Position numbers and translations under genes: made by a program
Assembly (NCBI GenBank): GCA_014526335.1
Contig: JACTAT010000217.1
Location: 463,482-527,481 of the forward strand
Reading direction: 5' to 3'
From: Chrysaora quinquecirrha
Taxonomy: Eukaryota > Cnidaria > Scyphozoa > Semaeostomeae > Pelagiidae
Length of the DNA: 64,000 bases
Notes under the pieces: generated by a model
Database searches by the model: none
The model's input: only the letters and a program-made list of their open reading frames with translations
Told to the model about the DNA's origin: nothing
Shown: positions 19,674-50,344 of the stretch, one piece after another
How positions within the stretch are numbered: the first letter of the stretch is position 1
Layout of the letters: every line of letters begins with the position of its first letter

Positions 19674-20622
19674 ATGGTTGCCTTCCAAGCAATCTATCCG
19701 GGTTCCACTCCGGCCGACACATAATTATTAAGATATCATTTTTCATTAAGAGAATACTATTTCAACCAAACGAAAAAGTAAATCAACTATTTCCCGTTTA
19801 AAATTCAAAAAGCGTTGGTGGTGTAGTTGTCAGCATTGTTGCCTTCCACGCAATCGATCCGGGTTCAACTCCCGGCCGACGCATAATATTTAAGATATCA
19901 TTTTGCAGTAAGAAAAAACTATTTCAACCAAACAAAAAAGTAAATCAACTATTTCCCCTTTAAAATTCAAAAAGCGTTGGTGGTGTAGCGGTTAGCATGG
20001 TTGCCTTCCAAGCAATCGATCCGGGTTCCACTCCCGGCCGACGCATAATTATTAAGATATCATTTTGCATTAAGAGAATACTATTTCAAACCAAACGGAA
20101 AAGTAAATCAACTATTTCCCCTTAAAAATTCAACAAGCGTTGGTGGTGTAGCGGTTAGCATGGTTGCCTTCCAAGCAATCGATCCAGGTTCCACTCCCGG
20201 CCGAGGCATAATTATTGAGATATCATTTTGCATTAAGAGAATACTATTTCGAACCAAATGGAAAAGTAAATCAACTATTTCCCCTTAAAAATTCAACAAG
20301 CGTTGGTGGTGTAGCGGTTAGCATGGTTGCCTTCCAAGCAATCGATCCGGGTTCCACTCTCCCGAGGAATAATTATTAAGATATCATTTTGCATTAAGAG
20401 AATACTATTTCGAACCAAATGGAAAAGTAAATCAACTATTTCCCCTTAAAAATTCAACAAGCGTTGGTGGTGTAGCGGTTAGCATGGTTTCCTTCCAAGC
20501 AATCGATCCGGGTTCCACTCCCGGCCGACGCATAATTATTAAGACATCATTTTGCATTAAGAGAATACTATTTCAACCAAACGAAAAAGTAAATCAACTA
20601 TTTCCCCTTTAAAATTCAAAAA

Positions 20623-20694
20623 GCGTTGGTGGTGTAGTGGTTAGCATGGTTGCCTTCCAAGCAATCGATCCGGGTTCAACTCCCGGCCGACGCT
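20623..20694 (+). tRNA. tRNA-Gly(UCC), near-consensus
   Basis: All stems intact. D-loop agtgg instead of agcgg, and discriminator base T instead of A, which could weaken charging. Confidence 0.7.
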
Positions 20695-21108
20695 TAATAT
20701 TTAAGATATCATTTTGCAGTAAGAAAAAACCATTTCAACCAAACGAAAAAGTAAATCAACTATTTCCCCTTTAAAATTCATAAAGCGTTGGTGGTTTAGC
20801 GGTTAGCATGGTTGCCTTCCAAGCAATCGATCCGGGTTCAACTCCAAGCCGACGCATAATTCTTAAAATATTTTTTTGCAGTAAGAAAAGACTATTTAAC
20901 CAAACGAAAAAGTAAATCAACTATTTCCCCTTAAAAATTCAACAAGCGTTGGTGGATAAGCGGTTAGCATGGTTGCCTTCCAAGCAATCGATCCGGGTTC
21001 CACTCCCGGCCGAGGCAAAATTATTAAGATATCATTTTGCATTAAGAGAATACTATTTCAAACCAAACGAAAAAGTAAATAAACTATTTCCCCTTTAAAA
21101 TTCAAAAA

Positions 21109-22476
21109 GTGTTGGTGGTGTAGCGGTTAGCATGGTTGCCTTCCAAGCAATCGATCCGGGTTCCACTCCCGGCCGAGGCATAATTCTTAAAATATTATTT
21201 TGCAGTAAGAAAAAGCTATTTCAAACCAAACGGAAAAGTAAATCAACTATTTCCCCTTAAAAATTCAACAAGCGTTGGTGGTGTAGCGGTTAGCATGGTT
21301 GCCTTCCAAGCAATCGATCCAGGTTCCACTCCCGGCCGAGGCATAATTATTAAGATATCATTTTGCAGTAAGAAAAAACTATTTCAACCAAACAAAAAAG
21401 TAAATCAACTATTTCCCCTTTAAAATTCAAAAAGCGTTGGTGGTGTAGCGGTTAGCATGGTTGCCTTCCAAGCAATCGATCCGGGTTCCACTCCCGGCCG
21501 ACGCATAATTATTAAGATATCACTTTGCATTAAGAGAATACTATTTCAAACCAAACGGAAAAGTAAATCAACTATTTCCCCTTAAAAATTCAACAAGTGT
21601 TGGTGGTGTAGCGGTTAGCATGGTTGCCTTCCAAGCAATCGATCCGGGTTCCACTCCCCCGAGGAATAATTATTAAGATATCATTTTGCATTAAGAGAAT
21701 ACTATTTCGAACCAAATGGAAAAGTAAATCAACTATTTCCCCTTAAAAATTCAACAAGCGTTGGTGGTGTAGCGGTTAGCATGGTTTCCTTCCAAGCAAT
21801 CGATCCGGGTTCCACTCCCGGCCAATGCATAATTATTAAGACATCATTTTGCATTAAGAGAATACTATTTCAACCAAACGAAAAAGTAAATAAACTATTT
21901 CCCTTTAAAATTCAAAAGTGTTGGTGGTGTAGCGGTTAGCATGGTTGCCTTCCAAGCAATCGATCCGGGTTCCACTCCCGGCCGAGGCATAATTCTTAAA
22001 ATATTATTTTGCAGTAAGAAAAAGCTATTTCAAACCAAACGGAAAAGTAAATCAACTATTTCCCCTTAAAAATTCAACAAGCGTTGGTGGTGTAGCGGTT
22101 AGCATGGTTGCCTTCCAAGCAATCGATCCAGGTTCCACTCCCAGCCGAGGCATAATTATTAAGATATCATTTTGCATTAAGAAAATACTATTTCAAACCA
22201 AATGGAAAAGTAAATCAACTATTTCCCCTTAAAAATTCAACAAGCGTTGGTGGTTTAGCGGTTAGCATGGTTGCCTTCCAAGCAATCTATCCGGGCTCCA
22301 CTCCGGCCGACACATAATTATTAAGATATCATTTTGCATTAAGAGAATACTATTTCAACCAAACGAAAAAGTAAATCAACTATTTCCCCTTTAAAATTCA
22401 AAAAGCGTTGGTGGTGTAGCGGTTAGCATGGTTGCCTTCCAAGCAATCGATCCAGGTTCAACTCCCGGCCGACGCA
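21109..22476 (+). repeat. Nine-unit array block, first copy
   Basis: The units starting at 21109, 21272, 21434, 21597, 21758, 21918, 22081, 22244 and 22405 match, in order and in private variants, those from 24346 to 25642. The offset is 3235-3237 bp, twenty units. Confidence 0.85.
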
Positions 22477-23534
22477 TAATATTTAAGATATCATTTTGCA
22501 GTAAGAAAAAACCATTTCAACGAAACGAAAAAGTAAATCAAGTATCAACCATTTCCCCTTTAAAATTCAACAAGCGTTGGTGGTGTAGAGTTTAGCATCG
22601 TTGCCTTCCAAGCAATCGATCCGGGTTCAACTCCCGGCAGACGCATAATTCTTAAGATATCATTTTGCAGTAAGAAAAAACCATTTCAACCAAACCAAAA
22701 AGTAAATCAACTATTTCCCCATAAAATTCAAAAAGCGTTGGTGGTGTAGTGGTTAGCATGGTTGCCTTCCAAGCAATCGATCCGGGTTCAACTCCCAGCC
22801 GACGCAAAATTCTTAAAATATTATTTTGCAGTAAGAAAAAACTATTTAACCAAACGAAAAAGTAAATCAACTATTTCCCCTTAAAAATTCAAAAAGCGTT
22901 GGTGGTATAGCGGTTAGCATGGTTGCCTTCCAAGCAATCGATCTGCGTTCAACTCCCAGCCGACGCATAATTCTTAAAATATTATTTTGCAGTAAGAAAA
23001 AACTATTTCGAACCAAATGGAAAAGTAAATCAACTATTACCCCTTAAAAATTCAACAAGCGTTGGTGGTGTAGCGGTTAGCATGGTTGCCTTCCAAGCAA
23101 TCGATCCGGGTTCCACTCCCGGCCGACGCATAATTATTAAGATATCATTTTGCATTAAGAGAATACTATTTCAAACCAAACGGAAAAGTAAATCAACTAT
23201 TTCCCCTTAAAAATTCAACAAGCGTTGGTGGATAAGCGGTTAGCATGGTTGCCTTCCAAGCAATCGATCCGGGTTCCACTCCCGGCCGAGGCATAATCAT
23301 TAAGATATCATTTTGCATTAAGAGAATACTATTTCAAACCAAATGGAAAAGTAAATCAACTATTTCCCCTTAAAAATTCAACAAGCGTTGGTGGTGTAGC
23401 GGTTGGCATGGTTGCCTTCCAAGCAATCTATCCGGGCTCCACTCCGGCCGACACATAATTATTAAGATATCATTTTGCATTAAGAGAATACTTTTTCAAC
23501 CAAACGAAAAAGTAACCCCTTTAAAATTCAAAAA

Positions 23535-23606
23535 GCGTTGGTGGTGTAGCGGTTAGCATGGTTGCCTTCCAAGCAATCGATCCGGGTTCAACTCCCGGCC
23601 GACGCA
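23535..23606 (+). tRNA. tRNA-Gly(UCC), consensus copy 1
   Basis: Identical to the array consensus over all 72 nt. The spacer before it is shortened (gtaacccctttaaaattc) and the one after is the gcagtaag type. Confidence 0.9.
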
Positions 23607-24345
23607 TAATATTTATAATATCATTTTGCAGTAAGAAAAAACCATTTCAACCAAACGAAAAAGTAAATCAAGTATCAAACTATGTCCCCTTTAAAATTCA
23701 ACAAGCGTTGGTGGTGTAGCGTTTAGCATCGTTGCCTTCCAAGCAATCGATCGAGGTTCAACTCCCGGCAGACGCATAATTCTTAAGATATCATTTTGCA
23801 TTAAGAGAATACAATTTCAAACCAAACGGAAAAGTAACCCCTTTAAAATTCAAAAAGCGTTGGTGGTGTAGCGGTTAGCATGGTTGCCTTCCGAGCAATC
23901 GATCCGGGTTCCACTCCCGGCCGACGCATAATTATTAAGATATCATTTTGCATTAAGAGAATACTATTTCAAACCAAACGAAAAAGTAAATAAACTATTT
24001 CCCCTTTAAAATTCAAAAAGTGTTGGTGGTGTAGCGGTTAGCATGGTTGCCTTCCAAGCAATCGATCCGGGTTCCACTCCCGGCCGAGGCATAATTCTTA
24101 AAATATTATTTTGCAGTAAGAAAAAGCTATTTCAAACCAAACGGAAAAGTAAATCAACTATTTCCCCTTAAAAATTCAACAAGCGTTGGTGGTGTAGCGG
24201 TTAGCATGGTTGCCTTCCGAGCAATCGATCCGGGTTCCACTCCCGGCCGACGCATAATTATTAAGATATCATTTTGCATTAAGAGAATACTATTTCAAAC
24301 CAAACGAAAAAGTAAATAAACTATTTCCCCTTTAAAATTCAAAAA

Positions 24346-28781: not shown

Positions 28782-29685
28782 TAATATTTAAGATATCATT
28801 TTGCAGTAAGAAAAAACCATTTCAACCAAACGAAAAAGTATATCAAGTATCAACCATTTCCCCTTTAAAATTCAACAAGCGTTGGTGGTGTAGCGTTTAG
28901 CATCGTTGCCTTCCAAGCAATCGATCCGGGTTCAACTCCCGGCAGACGCATAATTCTTAAGATATCATTTTGCAGTAAGAAAAAACCATTTCAACCAAAC
29001 CAAAAAGTAAATCAACTATTTCCCCATAAAATTCAAAAAGCGTTGGTGGTGTAGAGGTTAGCATAGTTGCCTTCCAAGCAATCGATCCGGGTTTAACTCC
29101 CAGCCGACGCATAATTCTTAAAATATTATTTTGCAGTAAGAAAAAACTATTTAACCAAACGAAAAAGTAAATCAACTATTTCCCCTTAAAAATTCAAAAA
29201 GCGTTGGTGGTGTAACAGTTAGCATGGTTGCCTTCCAAGCAATCGATCCGCGTTCAACTCCCGGCCGACGCATAATTCTTAAAATATCATTTTGCAGTAA
29301 GAAAAAACTATTTCAAACCAAATGGAAAAGTAAATCAACTATTTCCCCTTAAAAATTCAACAAGCGTTGGTGGTGTAGCGGTTAGCATGGTTGCCTTCCA
29401 AGCAATCGATCCGGGTTCCACTCCGGCCGACACAAAATTATTAAGATATCATTTTGCATTAAGAGAATACTTTTTCAACCAAACGAAAAAGTAAATCAAC
29501 TATTTCCCATTTAAAATTCATCAAGCGTTGGTGGTGTAGCGGTTAGCATGGTTGCCTTCCAAGCAATCTATCCGGGTTCCACTCCGGTCGACGCATAATA
29601 TTTAAGATATCATTTTGCATTAAGAGAATACTATTTCAACCAAACGAAAAAGTAAATAAACTATTTCCCCTTTAAAATTCAAAAA

Positions 29686-29757
29686 GCGTTGGTTGTGTAG
29701 CGGTTAGCATGGTTGCCTTCCAAGCAATCGATCCGGGTTCAACTCCCGGCCGACGCA
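29686..29757 (+). tRNA. tRNA-Gly(UCC), near-consensus
   Basis: T at position 9; otherwise consensus. Its block-B counterpart at 42252 has lost bases in the anticodon loop and T-stem. Confidence 0.7.
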
Positions 29758-30018
29758 TAATATTTATGATATCATTTTGCAGTGAGAAAAAACTATTTCA
29801 ACCAAACGAAAAAGTAAATCAAGTATCTATCAACTATTTCCCCTTTAAAATTCAACAAGCTTGGTGGTGTAGCGGTTAGCATGGTTGCCTTCCAAGCAAT
29901 CTATCCGGGTTCAACTCCAGCCGACACATAATTATTAAGATATCATTTTGCATTAAGAGAATACTTTTTCAACCAAACGAAAAAGTAAATCAACTATTTC
30001 CCATTTAAAATTCAACAA

Positions 30019-30089
30019 GCTTGGTGGTGTAGCGGTTAGCATGGTTGCCTTCAAAGCAATCGATCCTGGTTCAACTCCCGGCCGACGCA
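30019..30089 (+). pseudogene. tRNA-like copy with UCA anticodon, short acceptor
   Basis: Loop CTTCAAA gives anticodon TCA, cognate to UGA. The 5' acceptor strand has lost one base (gcttgg), which should prevent normal processing. Confidence 0.6.
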
Positions 30090-30341
30090 TAATATTGGTG
30101 ATCTCATTTTGCAGTAAGAAAAAACTATTTCAAACCAAACGGAAAAGTAAATCAACTATTTCCCCTTAAAAATTCAACAAGCGTTGGTGGTGTAGCGGTT
30201 AGCATGGTTGCCTTCCAAGCAATCGATCCGGGTTCCACTCCCCCGAGGCATAATTATTAAGATATCATTTTGCATTAAGAGAATACTATTTCGAACCAAA
30301 TGGAAAAGTAACTCAACTATTTCCCCTTAAAAATTCAACAA

Positions 30342-30413
30342 GCGTTGGTGGTGTAGCGGTTAGCATGGTTTCCTTCGAAGCAATCGATCCGGCTTCCACT
30401 CTCGGCCGACGCA
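30342..30413 (+). pseudogene. tRNA-like copy with UCG anticodon
   Basis: Loop CTTCGAA gives anticodon TCG (CGA, Arg). Anticodon stem gtttc has a mismatch and the T-loop is of the TTCCACT type. Confidence 0.5.
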
Positions 30414-30664
30414 TAATTATTAAGACATCATTTTGCATTAAGAGAATACTATTTCAACCAAACGAAAAAGTAAATCAACTATTTCCCCTTTAAAATTCAA
30501 CAAGCGTTGGTGGTGTAGCGGTGAGCATGGTTGCCTTCCAAGCAATCGATCCGGGTTCCACTCCCCCGAGGCATAATTATTAAGATATCATTTTGCATTA
30601 AGAGAATACTATTTCGAACCAAATGGAAAAGTAACTCAACTATTTCCCCTTAAAAATTCAACAA

Positions 30665-30736
30665 GCGTTGGTGGTGTAGCGGTCAGCATGGTTTCCTTCG
30701 AAGCAATCGATCCGGCTTCCACTCTCGGCCGACGCA
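30665..30736 (+). pseudogene. tRNA-like copy with UCG anticodon
   Basis: Same sub-family as 30342 with ggtcagc in the D-loop; absent from block B. Confidence 0.5.
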
Positions 30737-30826
30737 TAATTATTAAGACATCATTTTGCATTAAGAGAATACTATTTCAACCAAACGAAAAAGTAAATCA
30801 ACTATTTCCCCTTTAAAATTCAAAAA

Positions 30827-30898
30827 GCGTTGGTGGTGTAGCGGTGAGCATGGTTGCCTTCCAAGCAATCGATCCGGGTTCAACTCCCGGCCGACGCA
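30827..30898 (+). tRNA. tRNA-Gly(UCC), near-consensus
   Basis: D-loop ggtgagc instead of ggttagc, a form also seen in vertebrate tRNA-Gly. All stems paired. Confidence 0.75.
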
Positions 30899-31151
30899 TA
30901 ATATTTAAGATATCATTTTTGCAGTAAGAAAAAACCATTTCAACCAAACGAAAAAGTAAATCAACTATTTCCCCTTAAAAATTCAACAAGCGTTGGTGGT
31001 GTAGCGGTTAGCATGGTTGCCTTCCAAGCAATCTATCCGGGCTCCACTCCGGCCGACACATAATTATTAAGATATCATTTTGCATTAAGAGAATACTATT
31101 TCAACCAAACGAAAAAGTAAAATCAACTATTTCCCCTTTAAAATTCAAAAA

Positions 31152-31223
31152 GCGTTGGTGGTGTAGCGGTTAGCATGGTTGCCTTCCAAGCAATCGATCC
31201 GGGTTCAACTCCCGGCCGACGCA
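31152..31223 (+). tRNA. tRNA-Gly(UCC), consensus copy 4
   Basis: All 72 nt match consensus. Its block-B partner at 43390 has C for G at the top of the anticodon stem. Confidence 0.9.
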
Positions 31224-31800
31224 TAATATTTAAGATATCATTTTGCAGTAAGAAAAAACCATTTCAACCAAACGAAAAAGTATATCAAGTATCAACCATT
31301 TCCCCTTTAAAATTCAACAAGCGTTGGTGGTGTAGCGTTTAGCATCGTTGCCTTCCAAGCAATCGATCCGGGTTCAACTCCCGGCAGACGCATAATTCTT
31401 AAGATATCATTTTGCAGTAAGCAAAAACCATTTCAACCAAACCAAAAAGTAAATCAACTATTTCCCCATAAAATTCAAAAAGCGTTGGTGGTGTAGAGGT
31501 TAGCATAGTTGCCTTCCAAGCAATCGATCCGGGTTTAACTCCCAGCCGACGCATAATTCTTAAAATATTATTTTGCAGTAAGAAAAAACTATTTAACCAA
31601 ACGAAAAGTAAATCAACTATTTCCTTAAAATTCAAAAGCGTTGGTGGTATAGCGGTTAGCATGGGTTCCTTCCAAGCAATCGATCCGCGTTCAACTCCCA
31701 GCCGACGCATAATTCTTAAAATATTATTTTGCAGTAAGAAAAAACTATTTCAAACCAAACGGAAATGTAAATAAACTATTTCCCCTTAAAAATTCAACAA

Positions 31801-31872
31801 GCGTTGGTGGTGTAGCGGTTAGCATGGTTGCCTTCCAAGCAATCGATCCGGGTTCAACTCCCGGCCGACGCA
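31801..31872 (+). tRNA. tRNA-Gly(UCC), consensus copy 5
   Basis: All 72 nt match consensus. Its block-B partner is the equally intact copy at 44044. Confidence 0.9.
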
Positions 31873-32608
31873 TAATTATTAAGATATCATTTTGCATTAA
31901 GGGAATACTATTTCAAACCAAACGAAAAAGTAAATCAACTATTTCCCCTTTAAAATTCAACAAGCGTTGGTGGTGTAGCGTTTAGCATCGTTGCCTTCCA
32001 AGCAATCGATCCGGGTTCAAATCCCGGCAGACGCATAATTCTTAAGATATCATTTTGCATTAAGAGAATACTATTTCAAACCAAACAGAAAAGTAACCCC
32101 TTTAAAATTCAAAAAGCGTTGGTGGTGTAGCGGTTAGCATGGTTGCCTTCCAAGCAATCGATCCGGGTTCCACTCCCGGCCGAGGCATAAATATTAAGAT
32201 ATCATTTTGCATTAAGAGAATACTATTTCAAAGCAAATGGAAAAGTAAATCAACTATTTCCCCTTAAAAATTCATCAAGCGTTGGTGGTGTAGCGGTTAG
32301 CATGGTTGCCTTCCAAGCAATCTATCCGGGTTCCACTCCGGTCGACACATAATTATTAAGATATCATTTTGCATTAAGAGAATACTATTTCAACCAAACG
32401 AAAAAGTAAATCAACTATTTCCCATTTAAAATTCAAAAAGCGTTGGTGGTGTAGCGGTTAGCATGGTTGCCTTCCAAGCAATCGGTCCTGGTTCAACTCC
32501 CGGCCGACGCACAATATTTATGATATCATTTTGCAGTAAGAAAAAACTATTTCAACCAAACGAAAAAGTAAATCAAGTATCAAATATTTCCCCTTTAAAA
32601 TTCAAAAA

Positions 32609-32680
32609 GCGTTGGTTGTGTAGCGGTTAGCATGGTTGCCTTCCAAGCAATCGATCCGGGTTCAACTCTCGGCCGACGCA
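32609..32680 (+). tRNA. tRNA-Gly(UCC), near-consensus
   Basis: T at position 9 and CTCGG in the T-stem (a G-U pair). Fold kept. Confidence 0.65.
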
Positions 32681-32942
32681 TAATATTTATGATATCATTT
32701 TGCAGTGAGAAAAAACTATTTCAACCAAACGAAAAAGTAAATCAAGTAGCTACCAACTATTTCCCCTTTAAAATTCAACAAGCTTGGTGGTGTAGCAGTT
32801 AGCATGGTTGCCTTCCAAGCAATCTATCCGTGTTCCACTCCGGCCGACACATAATTATTAAGATATCATTTTGCATTAAGAGAATACTTTTTCAACCAAA
32901 CGAAAAAGTAAATCAACTATTTCCCATTTTAAAATTCAAAAA

Positions 32943-33014
32943 GCGTTGGTGGTGCGGCGGTTAGCATGGTTGCCTTCCAAGCAATCGATCCGGGTTCAAC
33001 TCCCGGCCGACGCA
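32943..33014 (+). tRNA. tRNA-Gly(UCC), near-consensus
   Basis: D-stem GTGC and D-loop ggcgg: the stem pairs better than consensus, but the A-box is altered. Confidence 0.65.
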
Positions 33015-34101
33015 TAATATTTAAGATATCATTTTGCATTAAGAGAATACTATTTCAACCAAACGAAAAAGTAAATAAACTATTTCCCCTTTAAAATTCA
33101 AAAAGCATTGGTTGTGTAGCGGTTAGCATGGTTGCCTTCCAAGCAATCGATCCGGGTTCAACTCCCGGCCGACGCATAATATTTATGATATCATTTTGCA
33201 GTGAGAAAAAACTATTTCAACCAAACCAAAAAGTAAATCAAGTAGCTATCAACTATTTCCCCTTAAAAATTCAACAAGCGTTGGTGGTGTAGCGGTTAGC
33301 ATGGTTGCCTTCCAAGCAATCGATCCGGGTTCCACTCCCCCGAGGCATAATTATTAAGATATCATTTTGCATTAAGAGAATACTATTTCGAACCAAATGG
33401 AAAAGTAACTCAACTATTTCCCCTTAAAAATTCAAAAAGCGTTGGTGGTGTAGCGGTTAGCATGGTTGCCTTCCAAGCAATCGATCCTGGTTCAACTCCC
33501 GGCCGATGCACAATATTTATGATATCATTTTGCAGTAAGAAAAAACTATTTCAGCCAAACGAAAAAGTAAATCAAGTATCAAATATTTCCCCTCTAAAAT
33601 TCAAAAAGCGTTGGTTGTGTAGCGGTTAGCATGGTTGCCTTCCAAGCAATCGATCTGGGTTCAACTCCCGGCCAACGTATAATATTTATGATATCATTTT
33701 GCAGTGAGAAAAAACTATTTCAACCAAACGAAAAAGTAAATCAAGTAGCTACCAACTATTTCCCCTTTAAAATTCAACAAGCTTGGTGGTGTAGCGGTTA
33801 GCATGGTTGCCTTCCAAGCAATCTATCCGGGTTCCACTCCGGCCGACACATAATTATTAAGATATCATTTTGCATTAAGAGAATACTTTTTCAACCAAAC
33901 AAAAAGTAAATCTACTATTTCCCATTTAAAATTCCACATGCGTTGGTGGTGCAGCGGTTAGCATGGTCTCCTTCCAAGCAATCGATCCGGGTTCAACTCC
34001 CGGCCGACGCATAATATTTAAGATATCATTTTGCATTAAGAGAATACTATTTCAACCAAACGAAAAAGTAAATAAACTATTTCCCCTTTAAAATTCAAAA
34101 A

Positions 34102-36243: not shown

Positions 36244-36283
36244 GAAAAAGTAAATCAACTATTTCCCCTTTAAAATTCAAAAA

Positions 36284-36778: not shown

Positions 36779-36850
36779 GCGTTGGTGGTGTTGCGGCTAG
36801 CATGGTTGCCTTCCAAGCAATCGATCCGGGTTCAACTCCCGGCCGACGCA
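36779..36850 (+). tRNA. tRNA-Gly(UCC), near-consensus
   Basis: D-loop tgcggctagc; all stems paired. Block-B partner 47478. Confidence 0.65.
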
Positions 36851-37427
36851 TAATATTTAAGATATCATTTTGCATTAAGAGAATACTATTTCAACAAAAC
36901 GAAGAAGTAAATTAACTATTTCCCCTTTAAAATTCAAAAAGCGTTGGTGGTGTAGCGGTTAGCATGGTTGCCTTCCAAGCAATCGGTCCGGGTTCAACTC
37001 CCGGACGACGTATAATTCCTAAAATGTTATTTTGCAGTAAGAAAAAACTATTTCAACCAAACGAAAAAGTAAATCAACTATTTCCCCTTAAAATTTCAAA
37101 ATGCGTTGTTGGTGTAGCGGTTAGCATGGTTGCCTTCCAAGCAAACGATCCGGGTTCAACTCCCGGCCGACACATAATGCTTAAAATATTATTTTGCAGT
37201 AAGAAAAAACTATTTCAAACCAAACGGAAAAGTAAATCAACTATTTCCCCTTAAAAATTCAACAGGCGTTGCTGGTGTAGCGGTTAGCATGGTTGCCTTC
37301 CAAGCAATCGATCCGGGTTCCACTCCGGCCGACACATAATTATAAAGATATCATTTTGCATTAAGAGAATACTATTTCAAACCAAACGAAAAAGTAAATC
37401 AACTATTTCCCCTTAAAAATGCAACAA

Positions 37428-37499
37428 GCGTAAGTGGTGTAGCGGTTAGCATGGTTGCCTTCGAAGCAATCGATCCGGGTTCAACTCTCTGCCGCCGCA
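37428..37499 (+). pseudogene. tRNA-like copy with UCG anticodon
   Basis: Anticodon TCG with an intact anticodon stem; acceptor gcgtaag/ccgccgc and T-stem ctctg are damaged. Confidence 0.5.
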
Positions 37500-37919
37500 T
37501 AATTATTAAGATATCATTTTGCAGTAAGAAAAATCATTTCAACCAAACGAAAAAGTAAATCAACTATTTCCCCTTAAAAATTCAACAAGCGTTGGTGGTG
37601 TAGCGGTTAGCATGGTTGCCTTCCAAGCAATCGATCCGTGTTCAACTCCCGGCCGACGCATAATATTTAAGATATCATTTTGCAGTAAGAAGAAACTATT
37701 TCAACCAAACGAAAAAGTAAATCAAGTATCAACTATTTCCCCTTTAAAATTCAACAAGCGTTGCTGGTGTAGCGGTTAGCATTGTTGCCTTCCAAGCAAT
37801 CAATCCGGGTTCCACTCCCGGCCGAGGCATAATTCTTAAAATATTATTTTGCAGTAAGAAAAACTATTTCAAACCAAACGGAAATGTAAATCAACTATTT
37901 CCCCTTAAAAATTCAACAA

Positions 37920-37991
37920 GCGTTGGTGGTGTAGCGGTTAGCATGGTTGCCTTCCAAGCAATCGATCTGGGTTCAACTCCCGGCCGACGCA
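37920..37991 (+). tRNA. tRNA-Gly(UCC), near-consensus
   Basis: CTGGG in the T-stem makes one G-U pair; otherwise consensus. Confidence 0.75.
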
Positions 37992-38082
37992 TAATTATTA
38001 AGATATCATTTTGCATTAAGAGAATACTATTTCAAACCAAACGAAAAAGTAAATCAACTATTTCCCCTTTAAAATTCAAAAA

Positions 38083-38154
38083 GCGTTGGTGGTGTAGCGG
38101 TTAGCATGGTTGCCTTCAAAGCAATCGATCCGTGTTCAACTCCCGGCCGACGCA
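38083..38154 (+). tRNA. tRNA-Gly body with UCA anticodon
   Basis: TCA anticodon with intact acceptor stem; only the T-stem mismatch ccgtg. Confidence 0.55.
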
Positions 38155-38414
38155 TAATATTTAAGATATCATTTTGCAGTAAGAAAAAACTATTTCAACC
38201 AAACGAAAAAGTAAATCAAGTATCAACTATTTCCCCTTTAAAATTCAACAAGCGCTGGTGGTGTAGCGGTTAGCATGGTTGCCTTCCAAGCAATCGATCC
38301 GGGTTCAACTCCCGGCCGACGCATAATATTTAAGATATCATTTTGCATTAAGAGAATACTATTTCAAACCAAACGGAAAAGTAAATCAACTATTTCCCCT
38401 TAAAAATTCAACAA

Positions 38415-38486
38415 GCGTTGGTGGTGTAGCGGTTAGCATGGTTGCCTTCCAAGCAATCGATCCGGGTTCAACTCTCGGCCGACGCA
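38415..38486 (+). tRNA. tRNA-Gly(UCC), near-consensus
   Basis: CTCGG on the 3' side of the T-stem makes one G-U pair; otherwise consensus. Confidence 0.75.
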
Positions 38487-39135: not shown

Positions 39136-39386
39136 TAATATTTAAGATATCATTTTGCAGTAAGAAAAAACCATTTCAACCAAACGAAAAAGTAAATCAA
39201 CTATTTCCCCATAAAATTCAAAAAGCGTTGGTGGTGTAGAGGTTAGCATGGTTGCCTTCCAAGCAATCGATCCGGGTTTAACTCCCAGCCGACGCATAAT
39301 TCTTAAAATATTATTTTGCAGTAAGAAAAACTGTTTCAAACCAAACGGAAATGTAAATCAACTATTTCCCCTTAAAAATTCAGCAA

Positions 39387-39412
39387 GCGTTGGTTCAACT
39401 CCCGGCCGACGC
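39387..39412 (+). pseudogene. tRNA-Gly copy with internal deletion
   Basis: gcgttgg is joined directly to ttcaactcccggccgacgca, removing D-arm, anticodon arm and half of the T-arm (46 nt). The flanking spacers are normal. Confidence 0.9.
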
Positions 39413-39665
39413 ATAATATTGGTGATCTCATTTTGCAGTAAGAAAAAACTATTTCAAACCAAACGGAAAAGTAAATCAACTATTTCCCCTTAAAAATTCA
39501 ACAAGCGTTGGTGGTGTAGCAGTTAGCATGGTTGCCTTCCAAGCAATCGATCCGGGTTCCACTCCCCCGAGGCATAATTATTAAGATATCATTTTGCATT
39601 AAGAGAATACTATTTCAAACCAAACGAAAAAGTAAATCAACTATTTCCCCTTTAAAATTCAAAAA

Positions 39666-41678: not shown

Positions 41679-42903
41679 TAGTTCTTAAAATATTATTTTG
41701 CAGTAAGAAAAAACTATTTAACCAAACGAAAAAGTAAATCAACTATTTCCCCTTGAAAATTCAAAAAGCGTTGGTGGTGTAACGGTTAGCATGGTTGCCT
41801 TCCAAGCAATCGATCCGCGTTCAACTCCCAGCCGACGCATAATTCTTAAAATATCATTTTGCAGTAAGAAAAAACTATTTCAAACCAAATGGAAAAGTAA
41901 ATCAACTATTTCCCCTTAAAAATTCAACAAGCGTTGGTGGTGTAGCGGTTAGCATGGTTGCCTTCCAAGCAATCGATCCGGGTTCCACTCCGGCCGACAC
42001 AAAATTATTAAGATATCATTTTGCATTAAGAGAATACTTTTTCAACCAAACGAAAAAGTAAATCAACTATTTCCCATTTAAAATTCATCAAGCGTTGGTG
42101 GTGTAGCGGTTAGCATGGTTGCCTTCCAAGCAATCTATCCGGGTTCCACTCCGGTCGACGCATAATATTTAAGATATCATTTTGCATTAAGAGAATACTA
42201 TTTCAACCAAACGAAAAAGTAAATAAACTATTTCCCCTTTAAAATTCAAAAGCGTTGGTTGTGTAGCGGTTAGCATGGTTGCCTTCAAGCAATCGATCCG
42301 GGTTCAACTCCGGCCGACGCATAATATTTATGATATCATTTTGCAGTGAGAAAAACTATTTCAACCAAACGAAAAGTAAATCAAGTATCTATCAACTATT
42401 TCCCCTTTAAAATTCAACAAGCTTGGTGGTGTAGCGGTTAGCATGGTTGCCTTCCAAGCAATCTATCCGGGTTCAACTCCGGCCGACACATAATTATTAA
42501 GATATCATTTTGCATTAAGAGAATACTTTTTCAACCAAACGAAAAAGTAAATCAACTATTTCCCATTTAAAATTCAACAAGCTTGGTGGTGGAGCGGTTA
42601 GCATGGTTGCCTTCCAAGCAATCGATCCTGGTTCAACTCCCGGCCGACGCATAATATTGGTGATCTCATTTTGCAGTAAGAAAAAACTATTTCAAACCAA
42701 ACGGAAAAGTAAATCAACTATTTCCCCTTAAAAATTCAACAAGCGTTGGTGGTGTAGCGGTTAGCATGGTTGCCTTCCAAGCAATCGATCCGGGTTCCAC
42801 TCCCCCGAGGCATAATTATTAAGATATCATTTTGCATTAAGAGAATACTATTTCGAACCAAATGGAAAAGTAACTCAACTATTTCCCCTTAAAAATTCAA
42901 CAA

Positions 42904-42975
42904 GCGTTGGTGGTGTAGCGGTTAGCATGGTTTCCTTCGAAGCAATCGATCCGGCTTCCACTCTCGGCCGACGCA
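42904..42975 (+). pseudogene. tRNA-like copy with UCG anticodon
   Basis: Block-B partner of 30342 with the same stem mismatch and TTCCACT loop. Confidence 0.5.
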
Positions 42976-43065
42976 TATTTATTAAGACATCATTTTGCAT
43001 TAAGAGAATACTATTTCAACCAAACGAAAAAGTAAATCAACTATTTCCCCTTTAACATTCAACAA

Positions 43066-43137
43066 GCGTTGGTGGTGTAGCGGTGAGCATGGTTGCCTTC
43101 CAAGCAATCGATCCGGGTTCAACTCCCGGCCGACGCA
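43066..43137 (+). tRNA. tRNA-Gly(UCC), near-consensus
   Basis: D-loop ggtgagc; block-B partner of 30827. Confidence 0.75.
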
Positions 43138-43389
43138 TAATATTCAAGATATCATTTTTGCAGTAAGAAAAAACCATTTCAACCAAACGAAAAAGTAAAT
43201 CAACTATTTCCCCTTAAAAATTCAACAAGCGTTGGTGGTGTAGCGGTTAGCATGGTTGCCTTCCAAGCAATCTATCCGGGCTCCACTCCGGCCGACACAT
43301 AATTATTAAGATATCATTTTGCATTAAGAGAATACTATTTCAACCAAACGAAAAAGTAAATCAACTATTTCCCCTTTAAAATTCAAAAA

Positions 43390-43461
43390 GCGTTGGTGGT
43401 GTAGCGGTTAGCATGCTTGCCTTCCAAGCAATCGATCCGGGTTCAACTCCCGGCCGACGCA
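43390..43461 (+). tRNA. tRNA-Gly(UCC), near-consensus
   Basis: C for G at position 27 removes a G-U pair at the top of the anticodon stem; otherwise consensus. Confidence 0.6.
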
Positions 43462-44043
43462 TAATATTTAAGATATCATTTTGCAGTAAGAAAAAACCAT
43501 TTCAAACAAACGAAAAAGTATATCAAGTATCAACCATTTCCACTTTAAAATTCAACAAGCGTTGGTGGTGTAGCGTTTAGCATCGTTGCCTTCCAAGCAA
43601 TCGATCCGGGTTCAACTCCCGGCAGACGCATAATTCTTAAGATATCATTTTGCAGTAAGAAAAAACCATTTCAACCAAACCAAAAAGTAAATCAACTATT
43701 TCCCCATAAAATTCAAAAAGCGTTGGTGGTGTAGAGGTTAGCATAGTTGCCTTCCAAGCAATCGATCCGGGTTTAACTCCCAGCCGACGCATAATTCTTA
43801 AAATATTATTTTGCAGTAAGAAAAAACTATTTAACCAAACGAAAAAGTAAATCAACTATTTCCCCTTAAAAATTCAAAAAGCGTTGGTGGTATAGCGGTT
43901 AGCATGGGTTCCTTCCAAGCAATCGATCCGCGTTCAACTCCCAGCCGACGCATGATTCTTAAAATATTATTTTGCAGTAAGAAAAAACTATTTCAAACCA
44001 AACGGAAATGTAAATAAACTATTTCCCCTTAAAAATTCAACAA

Positions 44044-44115
44044 GCGTTGGTGGTGTAGCGGTTAGCATGGTTGCCTTCCAAGCAATCGATCCGGGTTCAA
44101 CTCCCGGCCGACGCA
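44044..44115 (+). tRNA. tRNA-Gly(UCC), consensus copy 12
   Basis: All 72 nt match consensus; block-B partner of 31801. The copy 2913 bp upstream at 41131 is identical except for a UCU anticodon. Confidence 0.9.
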
Positions 44116-45174
44116 TAATTATTAAGATATCATTTTGCATTAAGGGAATACTATTTCAAACCAAACGAAAAAGTAAATCAACTATTTCCCCTTTAAAATT
44201 CAACAAGCGTTGGTGGTGTAGCGTTTAGCATCGTTGCCTTCCAAGCAATAGATCCGGGTTCAAATCGCGGCAGACGCATAATTCTTAAGATATCATTTTG
44301 CATTAAGAGAATACTATTTCAAACCAAACGGAAAAGTAACCCCTTTAAAATTCAAAAAGCGTTGGTGGTGTAGCGGTTAGCATGGTTGCCTTCCAAGCAA
44401 TCGATCCGGGTTCCACTCCCGGCCGAGGCATAAATATTAAGATATCATTTTGCATTAAGAGAATACTATTTCAAAGCAAATGGAAAAGTAAATCAACTAT
44501 TTCCCCTTAAAAATTCATCAAGCGTTGGTGGTGTAGCGGTTAGCATGGTTGCCTTCCAAGCAATCTATCCGGGTTCCACTCCGGTCGACACATCATTATT
44601 AAGATATCATTTTGCATTAAGAGAATACTATTTCAACCAAACGAAAAAGTAAATCAACTATTTCCCATTTAAAATTCAAAAAGCGTTGGTGGTGTAGCGG
44701 TTAGCATGGTTGCCTTCCAAGCAATCGGTCCTGGTTCAACTCCCGGCCGACGCACAATATTTATGATATCATTTTGCAGTAAGAAAAAACTATTTCAACC
44801 AAACGAAAAAGTAAATCAAGTATCAAATATTTCCCCTTTAAAATTCAAAAAGCGTTGGTTGTGTAACGGTTAGCATGGTTGCCTTCCAAGCAATCTATCC
44901 GTGTTCCACTCCGGCCGACACATAATTATTAAGATATCATTTTGCATTAAGAGAATACTTTTTCAACCAAACGAAAAAGTAAATCAACTATTTCCCATTT
45001 TAATATTCAAAAAGCGTTGGTGGTGCGACGGTTAGCATGGTTGCCTTCCAACAATCGATCCGGGTTCAACTCCCGGCCGACGCATAATATTTAAGATATC
45101 ATTTTGCATTAAGAGAATACTATTTCAACCAAACGAAAAAGTAAATAAACTATTTCCCCTTTAAAATTCAAAAA

Positions 45175-45246
45175 GCGTTGGTTGTGTAGCGGTTAGCATG
45201 GTTGCCTTCCAAGCAATCGATCCGGGTTCAACTCCCGGCCGACGCA
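45175..45246 (+). tRNA. tRNA-Gly(UCC), near-consensus
   Basis: T at position 9 only. Confidence 0.7.
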
Positions 45247-45677
45247 TAATATTTATGATATCATTTTGCAGTGAGAAAAAACTATTTCAACCAAACGAAA
45301 AAGTAAATCAAGTAGCTATCAACTATTTCCCCTTAAAAATTCAACAAGCGTTGGTGGTGTAGCGGTTAGCATGGTTGCCTTCCAAGCAATCGATCCGGGT
45401 TCCACTCCCCCGAGGCATAATTATTAAGATATCATTTTGCATTAAGAGAATACTATTTCGAACCAAATGGAAAAGTAACTCAACTATTTCCCCTTAAAAA
45501 TTCAAAAAGCGTTGGTGGTGTAGCGGTTAGCATGGTTGCCTTCCAAGCAATCGATCCTGGTTCAACTCCCGGCCGATGCACAATATTTATGATATCATTT
45601 TGCAGTAAGAAAAAACTATTTCAGCCAAACGAAAAAGTAAATCAAGTATCAAATATTTCCCCTCTAAAATTCAAAAA

Positions 45678-45749
45678 GCGTTGGTTGTGTAGCGGTTAGC
45701 ATGGTTGCCTTCCAAGCAATCGATCCGGGTTCAACTCCCGGCCGACGTA
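45678..45749 (+). tRNA. tRNA-Gly(UCC), near-consensus
   Basis: T at position 9, and a terminal acceptor pair changed to G-U (3' end gacgta). Confidence 0.6.
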
Positions 45750-46496
45750 TAATATTTATGATATCATTTTGCAGTGAGAAAAAACTATTTCAACCAAACG
45801 AAAAAGTAAATCAAGTAGCTACCAACTATTTCCCCTTTAAAATTCAACAAGCTTGGTGGTGTAGCGGTTAGCATGGTTGCCTTCCAAGCAATCTATCCGG
45901 GTTCCACTCCGGCCGACACATAATTATTAAGATATCATTTTGCATTAAGAGAATACTTTTTCAACCAAACAAAAAGTAAATCAACTATTTCCCATTTAAA
46001 ATTCCACATGCGTTGGTGGTGCAGCGGTTAGCATGGTCTCCTTCCAAGCAATCGATCCGTGTTCAACTCCCGGCCGACGCATAATATTTAAGATATCATT
46101 TTGCATTAAGAGAATACTATTTCAACCAAACGAAAAAGTAAATAAACTATTTCCCCTTTAAAATTCAACAAGCGCTGGTGGTGTAGCGGTTAGCATTGTT
46201 GCCTTCCAAGCAATCAATCCGGGTTCCACTCCCGGCCGAGGCATAATTCTTAAAATATTATTTTTGCAGTAAGAAAAACTGTTTCAAACCAAACGGAAAT
46301 GTAAATCAACTATTTCCCCTTAAAAATTCAGCAAACGTTGGTGGTGTAGCGGTTAGCATGGTTGCCTTCCAAGCAATCGATCCGGGTTCAACTCCCGGCC
46401 GACGCATAATATTTAAGATATCATTTTGCATTAAGAGAATACTATTTCAACAAAATGAAGAAGTAAATTAACTATTTCCCCTTTAAAATTCAAAAA

Positions 46497-46568
46497 GCGT
46501 TGGTGGTGTAGCGGTTAGCATGGTTACCTACCAAGCAATCGATCCGGGTTCAACTCTCTGCCGCCGCA
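46497..46568 (+). pseudogene. tRNA-like copy with ACC anticodon
   Basis: Block-B version; only one copy exists here against two in block A. Confidence 0.5.
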
Positions 46569-46820
46569 TAATTATTAAGATATCATTTTGCAGTAAGAAA
46601 AATCATTTCAACCAAACGAAAAAGTAAATCAACTATTTCCCCTTAAAAATTCAACAAGCGTTGGTGGTGTAGCGGTTAGCATGGTTGCCTTCCAAGCAAT
46701 CGATCCGGGTTCAACTCCCGGCCGAGGCATAATTCTTAAAATATTATTTTGCAGTAAGAAAAAACTATTTCAAACCAAACGGAAATGTAAATCAACTATT
46801 TCCCCTTAAAAATTCAACAA

Positions 46821-46892
46821 GCGTTGGTGGTGTAGCGGTTAGCATGGTTGCCTTCCAAGCAATCGATCCGGGTTCAACTCCCGGCCGACGCA
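46821..46892 (+). tRNA. tRNA-Gly(UCC), consensus copy 13
   Basis: All 72 nt match consensus; block-B partner of 36061 without the spacer duplication. Confidence 0.9.
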
Positions 46893-46983
46893 TAATTATT
46901 AATATATCATTTTGCATTAAGAGAATACTATTTCAAACCAGACGAAAAAGTAAATCAACTATTTCCCCTTTAAAATTCAAAAA

Positions 46984-47055
46984 GCGTTGGTGGTGTAGCG
47001 GTTAGCATGGTTGCCTTCAAAGCAATCGATCCGTGTTCAACTCCCGGCCGAGGCA
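46984..47055 (+). pseudogene. tRNA-like copy with UCA anticodon
   Basis: Block-B partner of 36284, with 3' end gaggca giving one acceptor mismatch. Confidence 0.5.
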
Positions 47056-47477
47056 TAATATTTAAGATATCATTTTGCAGTAAGAAGAAACTATTTCAAT
47101 CAAACGAAAAAGTAAATCAAGTATCAACTATTTCCCCTTTAAAATTCAACAAGCGTTGGTGGTGTAGCGGTTAGCATTGTTGCCTTCAAGCAATCAATCC
47201 GGTTTCCACTCCCGGCCGAGGCATAATTCTTAAAATATTATTTTGCAGTAAGAAAAAACTATTTCAAACCAAACGGAAATGTAAATCAACTATTTCCCCT
47301 TAAAAATTCAACAAGCGTTGGTGATGTAGCGGTTAGCATGGTTGCCTTCCAAGCAATCAATCCGGGTTCCACTCCCGGCCGAGGCATAATTCTTAAAATA
47401 TTATTTTTGCAGTAAGAAAAACTGTTTCAAACCAAACGGAAATGTAAATCAACTATTTCCCCCTAAAAATTCAACAA

Positions 47478-47549
47478 GCGTTGGTGGTGTTGCGGTTAGC
47501 ATGGTTGCCTTCCAAGCAATCGATCCGGGTTCAACTCCCGGCCGACGCA
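47478..47549 (+). tRNA. tRNA-Gly(UCC), near-consensus
   Basis: D-loop starts tgcgg; all stems paired; partner of 36779. Confidence 0.7.
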
Positions 47550-48126
47550 TAATATTTAAGATATCATTTTGCATTAAGAGAATACTATTTCAACAAAACG
47601 AAGAAGTAAATTAGCTATTTCCCCTTTAAAATTCAAAAAGCGTTGGTGGTGTAGCGGTTAGCATGGTTGCCTTCCAAGCAATCGGTCCGGGTTCAACTCC
47701 CGGACGACGTATAATTCCTAAAATGTTATTTTGCAGTAAGAAAAAACTATTTCAACCAAACGAAAAAGTAAATCAACTATTTCCCCTTAAAATTTCAAAA
47801 TGCGTTGTTGGTGTAGCGGTTAGCATGGTTGCCTTCCAAGCAAACGATCCGGGTTCAACTCCCGGCCGACACATAATGCTTAAAATATTAGTTTGCAGTA
47901 AGAAAAAACTATTTCAAACCAAACGGAAAAGTAAATCAACTATTTCCCCTTAAAAATTCAACAGGCGTTGGTGGTGTAGCGGTTAGCATGGTTGCCTTCC
48001 AAGCAATCGATCCGGGTTCCACTCCGGCCGACACATAATTATAAAGATATCATTTTGCATTAAGAGAATACTATTTCAAACCAAACGAAAAAGTAAATCA
48101 ACTATTTCCCCTTAAAAATGCAACAA

Positions 48127-48198
48127 GCGTAAGTGGTGTAGCGGTTAGCATGGTTGCCTTCGAAGCAATCGATCCGGGTTCAACTCTCTGCCGCCGCA
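48127..48198 (+). pseudogene. tRNA-like copy with UCG anticodon
   Basis: Block-B partner of 37428, same damage. Confidence 0.5.
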
Positions 48199-48778
48199 TA
48201 ATTATTAAGATATCATTTTGCAGTAAGAAAAATCATTTCAACCAAACGAAAAAGTAAATCAACTATTTCCCTTAAAATTCAACAAGCCTTGGTGGTGTAG
48301 CGGTTAGCATGGTTGCCTTCAAGCAATCGATCCGTGTTCAACTCCCGGCCGACGCATAATATTTAAGATATCATTTTGCAGTAAGAAGAAACTATTTCAA
48401 CCAAACGAAAAAGTAAATCAAGTATCAACTATTTCCCCTTTAAAATTCAACAAGCGTTGGTGGTGTAGCGGTTAGCATTGTTGCCTTCCAAGCAATCAAT
48501 CCGGGTTCCACTCCCGGCCGAGGCATAATTCTTAAAATATTATTTTGCAGTAAGAAAAACTATTTCAAACCAAACGGAAATGTAAATCAACTATTTCCCC
48601 TTAAAAATTCAACAAGCGTTGGTGGTGTAGCGGTTAGCATTGTTGCCTTCCAAGCAATCGATCTGGGTTCAACTCCCGGCCGACGCATAATTATTAAGAT
48701 ATCATTTTGCATTAAGAGAATACTATTTCAAACCAAACGAAAAAGTAAATCAACTATTTCCCCTTTAAAATTCAAAAA

Positions 48779-48850
48779 GCGTTGGTGGTGTAGCGGTTTG
48801 CATGGTTGCCTTCAAAGCAATCGATCCGTGTTCAACTCCCGGCCGACGCA
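48779..48850 (+). tRNA. tRNA-Gly body with UCA anticodon
   Basis: Block-B partner of 38083. TCA anticodon, D-loop ggtttgc, acceptor intact, T-stem mismatch. Confidence 0.5.
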
Positions 48851-49271
48851 TAATATTTAAGATATCATTTTGCAGTAAGAAAAAACTATTTCAACCAAAC
48901 GAAAAAGTAAATCAAGTATCAACTATTTCCCCTTTAAAATTCAACAAGCGCTGGTGGTGTAGCGGTTAGCATGGTTGCCTTCCAAGCAATCGATCCGGGT
49001 TCAACTCCCGGCCGACGCATAATATTTAAGATATCATTTTGCATTAAGAGAATACTATTTCAACCAAACAAAAAGTAAATCAACTATTTCCCCTTAAAAT
49101 TTCAACAAGCGTTGTTGGTGTAGCGGTTAGCATGGTTGCCTTCCAAGCAAACGATCCGGGTTCAACTCCCGGCCGACACATAATTCTTAAAATATTATTT
49201 TGCAGTAAGAAAAAACTATTTCAAACCAAACGGAAAAGTAAATCAACTATTTTCCCTTAAAAATTCAACAA

Positions 49272-49343
49272 GCGTTGGTGGTGTAGCGGTTAGCATGGTT
49301 GCCTTCCAAGCAATCGATCCGGGTTCAACTCCCGGCCGACGCA
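49272..49343 (+). tRNA. tRNA-Gly(UCC), consensus copy 14
   Basis: All 72 nt match consensus; lies beyond the end of block B in sequence that matches 39835-40400. Confidence 0.9.
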
Positions 49344-49758
49344 TAATATTTAAGATATCATTTTGCATTAAGAGAATACTATTTCAACTAAACGAAAAAG
49401 TAAATCAACTATTTCCCCTTAAAATTTCAAAATGCGTTGTTGGTGTAGCGGTTAGCATGGTTGCCTTCCAAGCAAACGATCCGGGTTCAACTCCCGGCCG
49501 ACACATAATTCTTAAAATATTATTTTGCAGTAAGAAAAAACTATTTCAAGCCAAACGGAAAAGTAAATCAACTATTTCCCCTTAAAAATTCAACAAGCGT
49601 TGGTGGTGTAGCGGTTGGCATGGTTGCCTTCCAAGCAATCGATCCGGGTTCCACTCCGGCCGACACATAATTATAAAGATATCATTTTGCATTAAGAGAA
49701 TACTATTTCAAACCAAACGAAAAAGTAAATCAACTATTTCCCCTTAAAAATGCAACAA

Positions 49759-49830
49759 GCGTAAGTGGTGTAGCGGTTAGCATGGTTGCCTTCGAAGCAA
49801 TCGATCCGGGTTCAACTCTCTGCCGCGGCA
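49759..49830 (+). pseudogene. tRNA-like copy with UCG anticodon
   Basis: gcgtaag acceptor as at 37428, with 3' end gcggca. Confidence 0.5.
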
Positions 49831-49919
49831 TAATTATTAAGATATCATTTTGCAGTAAGAAAAATCATTTCAACCAAACGAAAAAGTAAATCAACTATTT
49901 CCCCTTAAAAATTCAACAA

Positions 49920-49991
49920 GCGTTGGTGGTGTAGCGGTTAGCATGGTTGCCTTCGAAGCAATCGATCCGGGTTCAACTCTCTGCCGCGGCA
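49920..49991 (+). pseudogene. tRNA-like copy with UCG anticodon
   Basis: 5' acceptor gcgttgg is normal, but the 3' half reads ctctctgccgcggca, leaving mismatches in both T and acceptor stems. Confidence 0.5.
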
Positions 49992-50080
49992 TAATTATTA
50001 AGATATCATTTTGCAGTAAGAAAAATCATTTCAACCAAACGAAAAAGTAAATCAACTATTTCCCCTTAAAAATTCAACAA

Positions 50081-50152
50081 GCGTTGGTGGTGTAGCGGTT
50101 AGCATGGTTGCCTTCCAAGCAATCGATCCGGGTTCAACTCCCGGCCGACGCA
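50081..50152 (+). tRNA. tRNA-Gly(UCC), last complete copy
   Basis: All 72 nt match consensus. It is the final whole gene before the array stops inside the next copy (50243-50268). Confidence 0.9.
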
Positions 50153-50344
50153 TAATATTTAAGATATCATTTTGCAGTATAAGAAAATTATTTCAACTAA
50201 ACGGAAAAGTAAATCAACTATTTCCCCTTGAGAATTCAACAAGCGTCGGTGGTGTTGCGGTTAGCATGATAAACGTCTCCTCTTTATAAACGATCTCCTA
50301 TCAAACCATCAACTGAACAAGGCAAAAGAAAATATGTCTCGTAG

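Follow-up and report, generated by a model that had tools for sequence, protein, structure and literature searches.

A tandem array of tRNA-Gly(UCC)-like units in Chrysaora quinquecirrha that probably behaves as satellite DNA

This analysis revealed a tandem array of tRNA-Gly(UCC)-like units on the plus strand, at positions 19674 to 50268 of the window, by which we refer to the whole stretch of 64,000 nucleotides that was analysed. The array was recognised by Tandem Repeats Finder, an alignment scan, ARAGORN and Rfam. The alignment scan yielded 188 units: 186 full-length ones of about 163 bp, with full-length copies running from 19812 to 50152, and a truncated one at either end; the limits were reproduced by Tandem Repeats Finder. 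A scan row at 348-418 (score 12), outside the array, was dropped, and the two truncated end copies are not among the 186. The units lie head to tail and span 30.6 kb of a 328-Mb genome, and no minus-strand score in the window exceeds 5, so the array lies exclusively on the plus strand. The units are 150-280 bp apart, and 138 of the 186 fall within 161-163 bp. The number of units, limits, strand and period proposed in the initial annotation are thus confirmed. As to the TTTT run that it places about 20 nt downstream of each copy, TTTT begins 17 nt past the tRNA in 181/186 copies and 14 nt past it in one, and four units lack it.

The left-most truncated copy (19674..19721) begins at tRNA position 24, and its junction is the same as in a second contig, C209; the right-most one (50243..50268) stops at tRNA position 26, and this end is unlike that in C209. 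A representative of the consensus-identical copies, recovered by the alignment scan and by Rfam, is found at 50081..50152, with its predicted Pol III terminator at 50170..50173. Both Tandem Repeats Finder and the alignment scan detected two lengthened units: an exact twofold repeat of a 60-bp stretch comprising the tRNA 3' end and spacer (36123..36242) produces a unit of 223 bp, and a 118-bp duplication (39275..39512) produces one of 280 bp. The left flank carries an ACGTGCC minisatellite (18001..18328) that recurs to the left of the array in C209, and an inverted copy lies in the right flank (50344..50485). These inverted minisatellites were considered as the ends of a mobile element and set aside, since the locus shared with C209 extends well past them. 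A Pfam scan of ten reading frames in the flanks returned GIY-YIG as the sole domain.

ARAGORN predicted 166 tRNAs in the window, every one within the array, of which 146 were typed as Gly-TCC, 3 as Gly-ACC, 6 as 'SeC', 6 as Arg and 1 as Leu, with 4 left undetermined. The Rfam tRNA gathering score was reached 177 times in the window, in all cases inside the array among the 150 matches listed. Exactly 15 copies are identical to the 72-nt consensus, as had been noted before, and the anticodon TCC is kept in 161/186. The earlier expectation that many more copies should fold was too generous: 42/186 are free of indels and retain all 21 pairs, and only 25/186 are strictly intact (no indel, 21 pairs, TCC, invariant bases, both promoter boxes and a terminator). 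A strict B box is present in 90/186 ungapped copies, the count on the gapped alignment being 87/186, and 72 copies belong to an amplified subfamily that has C at position 57. Mean pairwise identity between copies is 0.904. When the consensus and four copies were folded as RNA, the consensus took a cloverleaf-like shape that lacks the D arm (z -1.6), a result to which we attach little weight.

With regard to selection, none on tRNA structure was detected in this array by substitution rates, stem variants or comparison with random mutants. Alignment columns found in under half of the copies were excluded from the spacing, integrity, substitution, stem-variant, simulation, block and promoter-box analyses, and the monomer alignment used to compare the arrays excluded units above 180 bp, which kept 184/186 units of this array, 28/28 of C209, and 68/71 and 61/62 of the two arrays on contig C141 described below. 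Parsimony steps per site amount to 2.38 in the tRNA and 2.08 in the spacer, and to 2.40 in stems and 2.33 in loops. The 51 recently duplicated monomer pairs differ at 18/3651 tRNA sites and 15/4570 spacer sites. Pairing was preserved in 11 of 52 distinct stem variants, with 27% expected at random, and ARAGORN accepts 140/144 indel-free copies, compared with 139.7 among random mutants. Strictly intact copies number 25 among the 144 indel-free ones, compared with 29.6 +/- 3.4 in simulations and about 41 expected if 10% of copies were protected. Counting against a satellite, the four-column stretches 22-25 and 39-42 are both unchanged, more than permutation gives (36 of 5000), although anticodon base 36 has changed eight times. 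The 14 CpG sites show 4.07 steps and the remaining tRNA sites 1.97, and a higher mutation rate of tDNA could hide weak selection.

The array also contains evidence of block-wise growth. A large internal block (29201..38486, plus strand) and its second copy (41768..49343, plus strand) share 46 monomer pairs with a mean identity of 99.1%, leaving 11 units without a partner in the first copy and 1 in the second. Repeated runs reach 17 adjacent units at 99% identity, for which the joining of haplotypes is a possible alternative source. Neighbouring monomers resemble each other no more than random pairs do (0.9046 vs 0.9043), and local homogenisation by exchange between neighbours was rejected for now on these grounds.

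Contig C209 carries the same locus in a second version, either an allele or a duplicate, with 28 units (one truncated) as opposed to the 188 found here. Blocks collinear with C209 lie on both sides of the array, from 9589 to 63528 of the window, and most are 94-97% identical; the left junction is common to both versions, whereas the right end in C209 falls in the spacer and is followed by other sequence. Two more arrays are located on contig C141, with 71 (C141a) and 62 (C141b) units. Between the array described here and C209, the consensus differs at 0/72 tRNA sites and 8/90 spacer sites (p 0.009); between the two array families, it differs at 1/72 and 12/89 sites, respectively (p 0.007). As the consensuses diverge less in the tRNA than in the spacer, the founding sequences must have been under constraint, which counts against a satellite. 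So does a mild constraint on the tRNA sites of C141a (1.31 steps per site, spacer 1.97) and C141b (0.93, spacer 1.43; p about 0.005), where stems are nevertheless not below loops. The comparison of strict intactness used 72-nt copies only (144/186 here, 27/28 in C209, 68/71 in C141a and 55/62 in C141b), and strictly intact copies exceed random in C209 (18 vs 12.9) and C141b (28 vs 21.8), again counting against a satellite; once identical copies were collapsed, this excess vanished in C209 (3 vs 3.0) and became smaller in C141b (9 vs 6.1).

The same genome contains dispersed tRNA-Gly(UCC) genes, which share an identical 72-nt body in all seven cases among the matches listed. In each of these seven, CTTTT follows directly 3' of the body, placing the T-run one base behind the gene. 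The genes sit in at least five upstream contexts, and in a comparison aimed at tRNA-derived SINEs, the 30 nt on the 5' side and the 40 nt on the 3' side of all seven were unlike the array spacer. Their body is matched by none of the 294 full-length (72-nt) copies across the four arrays, and in this respect the copies differ from a functional tRNA-Gly(UCC) gene family. The dispersed genes have G at standard position 57, which is missing from 293 of these 294 copies; the array types carry A or C there.

Taken together, the array probably behaves as a satellite that turns over by unequal or block exchange and whose copies are free of detectable selection. A short unit is repeated in it many times head to tail, it appears to have grown in blocks, and its individual copies show no detectable constraint, as opposed to those of the mildly constrained C141a and C141b. 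As selection for tRNA shape has left no trace in the copies, the array is likely to be satellite DNA rather than a needed supply of tRNA. The founder would have been a functional tRNA-Gly(UCC) gene together with its spacer, the genome having two unit families, and either unequal crossing-over or the replication-based duplication of blocks may have driven the expansion. Most of the tRNA-Gly(UCC) would come from the dispersed genes; a few intact array copies may still be transcribed by Pol III, yet this would not be what maintains the array, whose copies would decay while it grows and shrinks. A more specific version, which we put forward tentatively and regard as unlikely, is a nucleosome-length tRNA satellite whose expansion is driven by Pol III from the intact minority, for example through fork stalling and template switching. 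The satellites would form a self-renewing lineage in the genome: born functional, they would spread by duplication in blocks, lose the promoter and the cloverleaf one copy at a time and be replaced, and the versions with 28 and 188 units would be snapshots of this process.

Among the alternatives, it seems improbable that the copies are kept for an abundant supply of tRNA-Gly(UCC), for instance for glycine-rich proteins. The persistence of the 15 consensus-identical and 25 strictly intact copies, the near-perfect tRNAs represented by the array consensuses, and the largely intact strict B box of C209 (26/28), C141a (62/71) and C141b (53/62) agree with such a dosage role, and the mild constraint in C141a and C141b makes a weak one possible. 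However, selection on structure went undetected here, only about half of the copies keep a strict B box, the C57 subfamily was nevertheless amplified, and dispersed genes with the canonical body exist. Extra glycine tRNA, suggested previously as the reason for the copies, is therefore unsupported; mutations in them ignore tRNA structure.

The earlier suggestion of a TFIIIC-rich barrier is likewise unsupported. A chromatin element, in which dense binding of TFIIIC or Pol III or nucleosome phasing at 163 bp creates a boundary or a nucleation site for heterochromatin, is distinctly improbable. The nucleosome repeat is near the length of the unit, the spacers are A+T-rich and TTTT is found in 182/186 units, all of which fit this proposal, as does the barrier activity of tDNA arrays elsewhere (PMC4041453). 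Nevertheless, the columns of the A box (2.9 steps per site) and B box (2.5) are no less variable than the remaining ones (2.2), and the strict B box is missing from about half of the copies. Of the three roles initially proposed, a satellite is the best fit.

It is also decidedly improbable that the array is real but owes its length, chiefly that of its second half, to haplotype joining or an error in the repeat graph. Between the middle and the second half, which duplicates it, identity is at an allele-like level, and a separate contig holds an alternative version of the locus; on the other hand, the two block copies are unequal in content, the assembly contains three more arrays and the window sequence is free of N. 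The integration of a tandem circle (eccDNA), with a whole number of units inserted at an ATG, is hardly credible: both ends fall at tRNA positions 24-26 with a 3-nt ATG overlap, but the right end of C209 lies in the spacer, and the matching ends are thus not common to both versions.

Tandem tRNA arrays are already known from Hydractinia, Nematostella, Entamoeba, human and maize, and the present array joins them. The initial annotation was aware of no cnidarian example on this scale, but Hydractinia has tandem arrays, including some of tRNAs, that run to tens or hundreds of copies, and Nematostella has arrays of tRNA, 5S and U5 (PMC11067881); the authors of that report state that they found no such arrays in other cnidarian genomes. 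Compared with the Hydractinia arrays, the one described here has spacers of about 90 nt, a mean copy identity of 90% and mostly broken structures. In Nematostella, 89% of tDNAs are clustered, and its clusters of fifty and more tDNAs are a point of likeness to our array, whereas neighbouring pairs there are mostly heterogeneous and our array derives from a single isoacceptor (PMC2888827). Entamoeba likewise has long head-to-tail arrays of tRNA units, whose function was termed obscure and for which dispersed low-copy genes speak against dosage; in contrast to our array, its units contain up to five tRNA genes, and the copies are described as mostly uniform and without clear pseudogenes (PMC2652664). 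The maize repeat tRNASAT_ZM, a 92-kb array on chr4L, is named after tRNA and classed as a satellite, a likeness of name and class with an array from a plant (PMC10335936). The human tDNA VNTR at 1q23.3 is also a tandem array with variable copy number at one locus, but its 7.3-kb unit contains several tRNA genes, binds CTCF and occurs in 9-43 copies (PMC4041453). Xenopus tRNA arrays are covered in a commentary (PMC11500080).

Satellite arrays can inflate tRNA gene counts, and reported anthozoan counts reach 6,033 in Orbicella (5,762 after an update), 6,951 in Astrangia and 14,806 in the anemone Actinernus. If such arrays are satellites, these counts would be no gauge of translation capacity, and false isotype entries would follow: the other isotypes predicted here by ARAGORN ('SeC' and Arg six times each, Leu once) all stem from one decaying Gly array. 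Given that no full-length array copy is identical to the dispersed genes and that nearly all lack G57, tRNA sequencing can separate the two sources, and the locus makes the old question of dosage in tRNA arrays testable.

The array in the window was found to be a single tandem array of tRNA-Gly(UCC)-like units (19674-50268, plus strand; Tandem Repeats Finder). When the 72-nt consensus was used as the query of a semi-global scan, 186 full-length copies were recovered, with a further truncated one at either end of the array, every one on the plus strand. This bears out the 188 units claimed in the initial annotation, and its figure of 15 perfect copies is also upheld, where perfect means identical to the array consensus. 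All 166 tRNAs called by ARAGORN lie within the array, as do all of the 150 matches listed out of the 177 that reach the gathering score of the Rfam tRNA family. The unit length is 161-163 bp in 138 of the 186 units, and 181 of the 186 copies have TTTT 17 nt 3' of the tRNA.

With regard to integrity, 144 of the 186 copies are indel-free and 42 are indel-free with all 21 pairs, while 25 are strictly intact, meaning that the TCC anticodon, invariant bases, terminator and the two promoter boxes, as these motifs are generally defined, are retained as well. The TCC anticodon is present in 161/186 copies, and the remaining copies account for the SeC, Arg, Leu and undetermined tRNA calls. A strict B box was counted in 90/186 copies on ungapped sequences and in 87/186 on the gapped alignment. 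In 72/186 copies a C occupies standard position 57 (alignment column 56), where this base is unusual in tRNAs.

The tRNA part of the window array shows no sign of selection. Parsimony gave 2.38 steps per site in the tRNA versus 2.08 in the spacer (2.33 versus 1.89 on a joint alignment), and 2.40 in stems versus 2.33 in loops. CpG sites are hot (4.07 steps), and non-CpG tRNA sites, at 1.97, are near the spacer value of 2.08. Distinct variants per site are 1.24, 1.23 and 1.21 for stems, loops and spacer, respectively, and 51 reciprocal-best recent monomer pairs differ at 18/3651 tRNA sites and 15/4570 spacer sites. The pair is kept by 11 of 52 stem variants, versus 27% expected. ARAGORN accepts 140 of the 144 indel-free copies, with a mean of 139.7 when equal numbers of substitutions are placed randomly, and the 25 strictly intact copies among these 144 compare with 29.6 ± 3.4 in simulation, or 41 when 10% of copies are protected. 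As blocks have been duplicated, the copies are not independent; collapsing them to 86 unique indel-free bodies gave the same outcome (9 strictly intact versus 10.7 expected). Plain pairwise divergence points in the opposite direction, with 0.068 for the tRNA against a higher 0.094 for the spacer; we ascribe this to a small number of old polymorphisms of the spacer that half of the copies share. Two runs of four never-changed columns, in the D and anticodon stems, also run counter to an absence of selection.

Neighbouring units resemble each other no more than randomly chosen pairs do (0.9046 versus 0.9043; 2109 of 5000 permutations at or above the observed value), and runs of up to 17 units reappear elsewhere in the array at 99%; visible growth has therefore proceeded by blocks and not by single neighbours. 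A chain of 46 monomer pairs (99.1%) links 29201-38486 to 41768-49343, although a join of two haplotypes could mimic this last growth step.

A search of the same assembly (328 Mb, 740 contigs), in which the window lies at C210:463482-527481, returned at least 272 matches. Outside the window, those listed comprise arrays on C209 and C141 as well as single genes on three other contigs (C415, C467, C257). The scan found 28 copies on C209, one of them truncated, and 71 and 62 in the two C141 arrays, C141a and C141b. On C209 the window locus is present in another version, either the other allele or a duplicate. The two versions share 16 collinear blocks, one of them within the array, from window position 9589 to 63528 (mean identity 93.8%); 12 are 94-97.5% identical, and the four adjoining or inside the array, two of which contain minisatellites, are 81-91% identical. 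The left array junction is common to both, whereas the right ends differ. A satellite at 58242-61620, with about 48 copies of a 71-bp unit, is absent from the C209 locus in this alignment, where about 80 bp stand against 4.3 kb in the window. The C141 arrays (L011-L012 and L014-L015) lie about 140 kb apart in opposite orientation with related flanks, and would reflect either inverted duplication or the joining of haplotypes. A 106-bp minisatellite (L012:7211-8279) interrupts C141a between tRNA units.

The window also contains a plus-strand retroelement remnant with a GIY-YIG endonuclease domain (15217-16560), presumably Penelope-like; its C209 copy is 97% identical and is interrupted at window position 15428, where about 0.6 kb of additional sequence lies. 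Inverted arms of a CAGTACAGTGGAGG minisatellite (50613-51075 and 52211-52495, about 1.1 kb apart) may form a foldback or MITE-like element. At 1-4407 there are direct duplications, 0.6-1.1 kb in length, that contain TAAGAT arrays. A weak plus-strand tRNA-like sequence (348-418), found by the semi-global scan with no ARAGORN call, is perhaps a SINE head.

Tandem tRNA arrays are already known from other organisms, and the window array is a further example. One study describes tandem arrays in Hydractinia, tRNAs included, with copy numbers in the tens or hundreds, and tRNA arrays in Nematostella, its authors finding RNA tandem arrays in no further cnidarian genome (PMC11067881). Other work reports more than 20,000 tRNA repeats in two of the three species of a coral study (PMC12005156), a 92-kb tRNA satellite in maize (PMC10335936), the human 1q23.3 tDNA VNTR (PMC4041453), and Entamoeba arrays without clear pseudogenes, whose function is termed obscure (PMC2652664). 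Judged by titles and abstract starts, with few subscription journals covered, the papers listed by literature searches include no earlier test of whether the copies in an array of this kind are under selection.

The seven dispersed, non-arrayed tRNA-Gly(UCC) genes among the matches listed share a single 72-nt body that is followed immediately by CTTTT, and the sequences upstream of it represent at least five different contexts. This body differs from the window array consensus at columns 5 (C in the dispersed genes) and 56 (G), and is matched by none of the 294 full-length copies of the four arrays (144 + 27 + 68 + 55); the dispersed-type G occurs in one of them, in C141a. The dispersed genes look like a conserved gene family, and the window array is outside it.

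Some results oppose an absence of constraint. Consensus differences are concentrated in the spacer: the two array families differ at 1/72 tRNA versus 12/89 spacer sites, and the window array and C209 at 0/72 versus 8/90 (C209 and C141 differ at 17/90 spacer sites). The founding units were therefore constrained. By column permutation, tRNA sites change less than spacer in C141a (p 0.004) and C141b (p 0.006), with stems not lower than loops. Strictly intact copies number 18 versus 12.9 at random in C209 (3/400 simulations; 3 versus 3.0 with identical copies collapsed) and 28 versus 21.8 in C141b (2/400; 9 versus 6.1 when collapsed, 38/400), with no excess in C141a (19 versus 19.4). In C209, C141a and C141b, respectively, 26/28, 62/71 and 53/62 copies retain the strict B box. 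We read these results as arrays being born from functional genes and decaying afterwards, with the window array exceeding the other three in both size and decay. The C209 and C141 arrays may have a weak dosage role; the window locus is a real, large tRNA array, best read as a tRNA-gene satellite.
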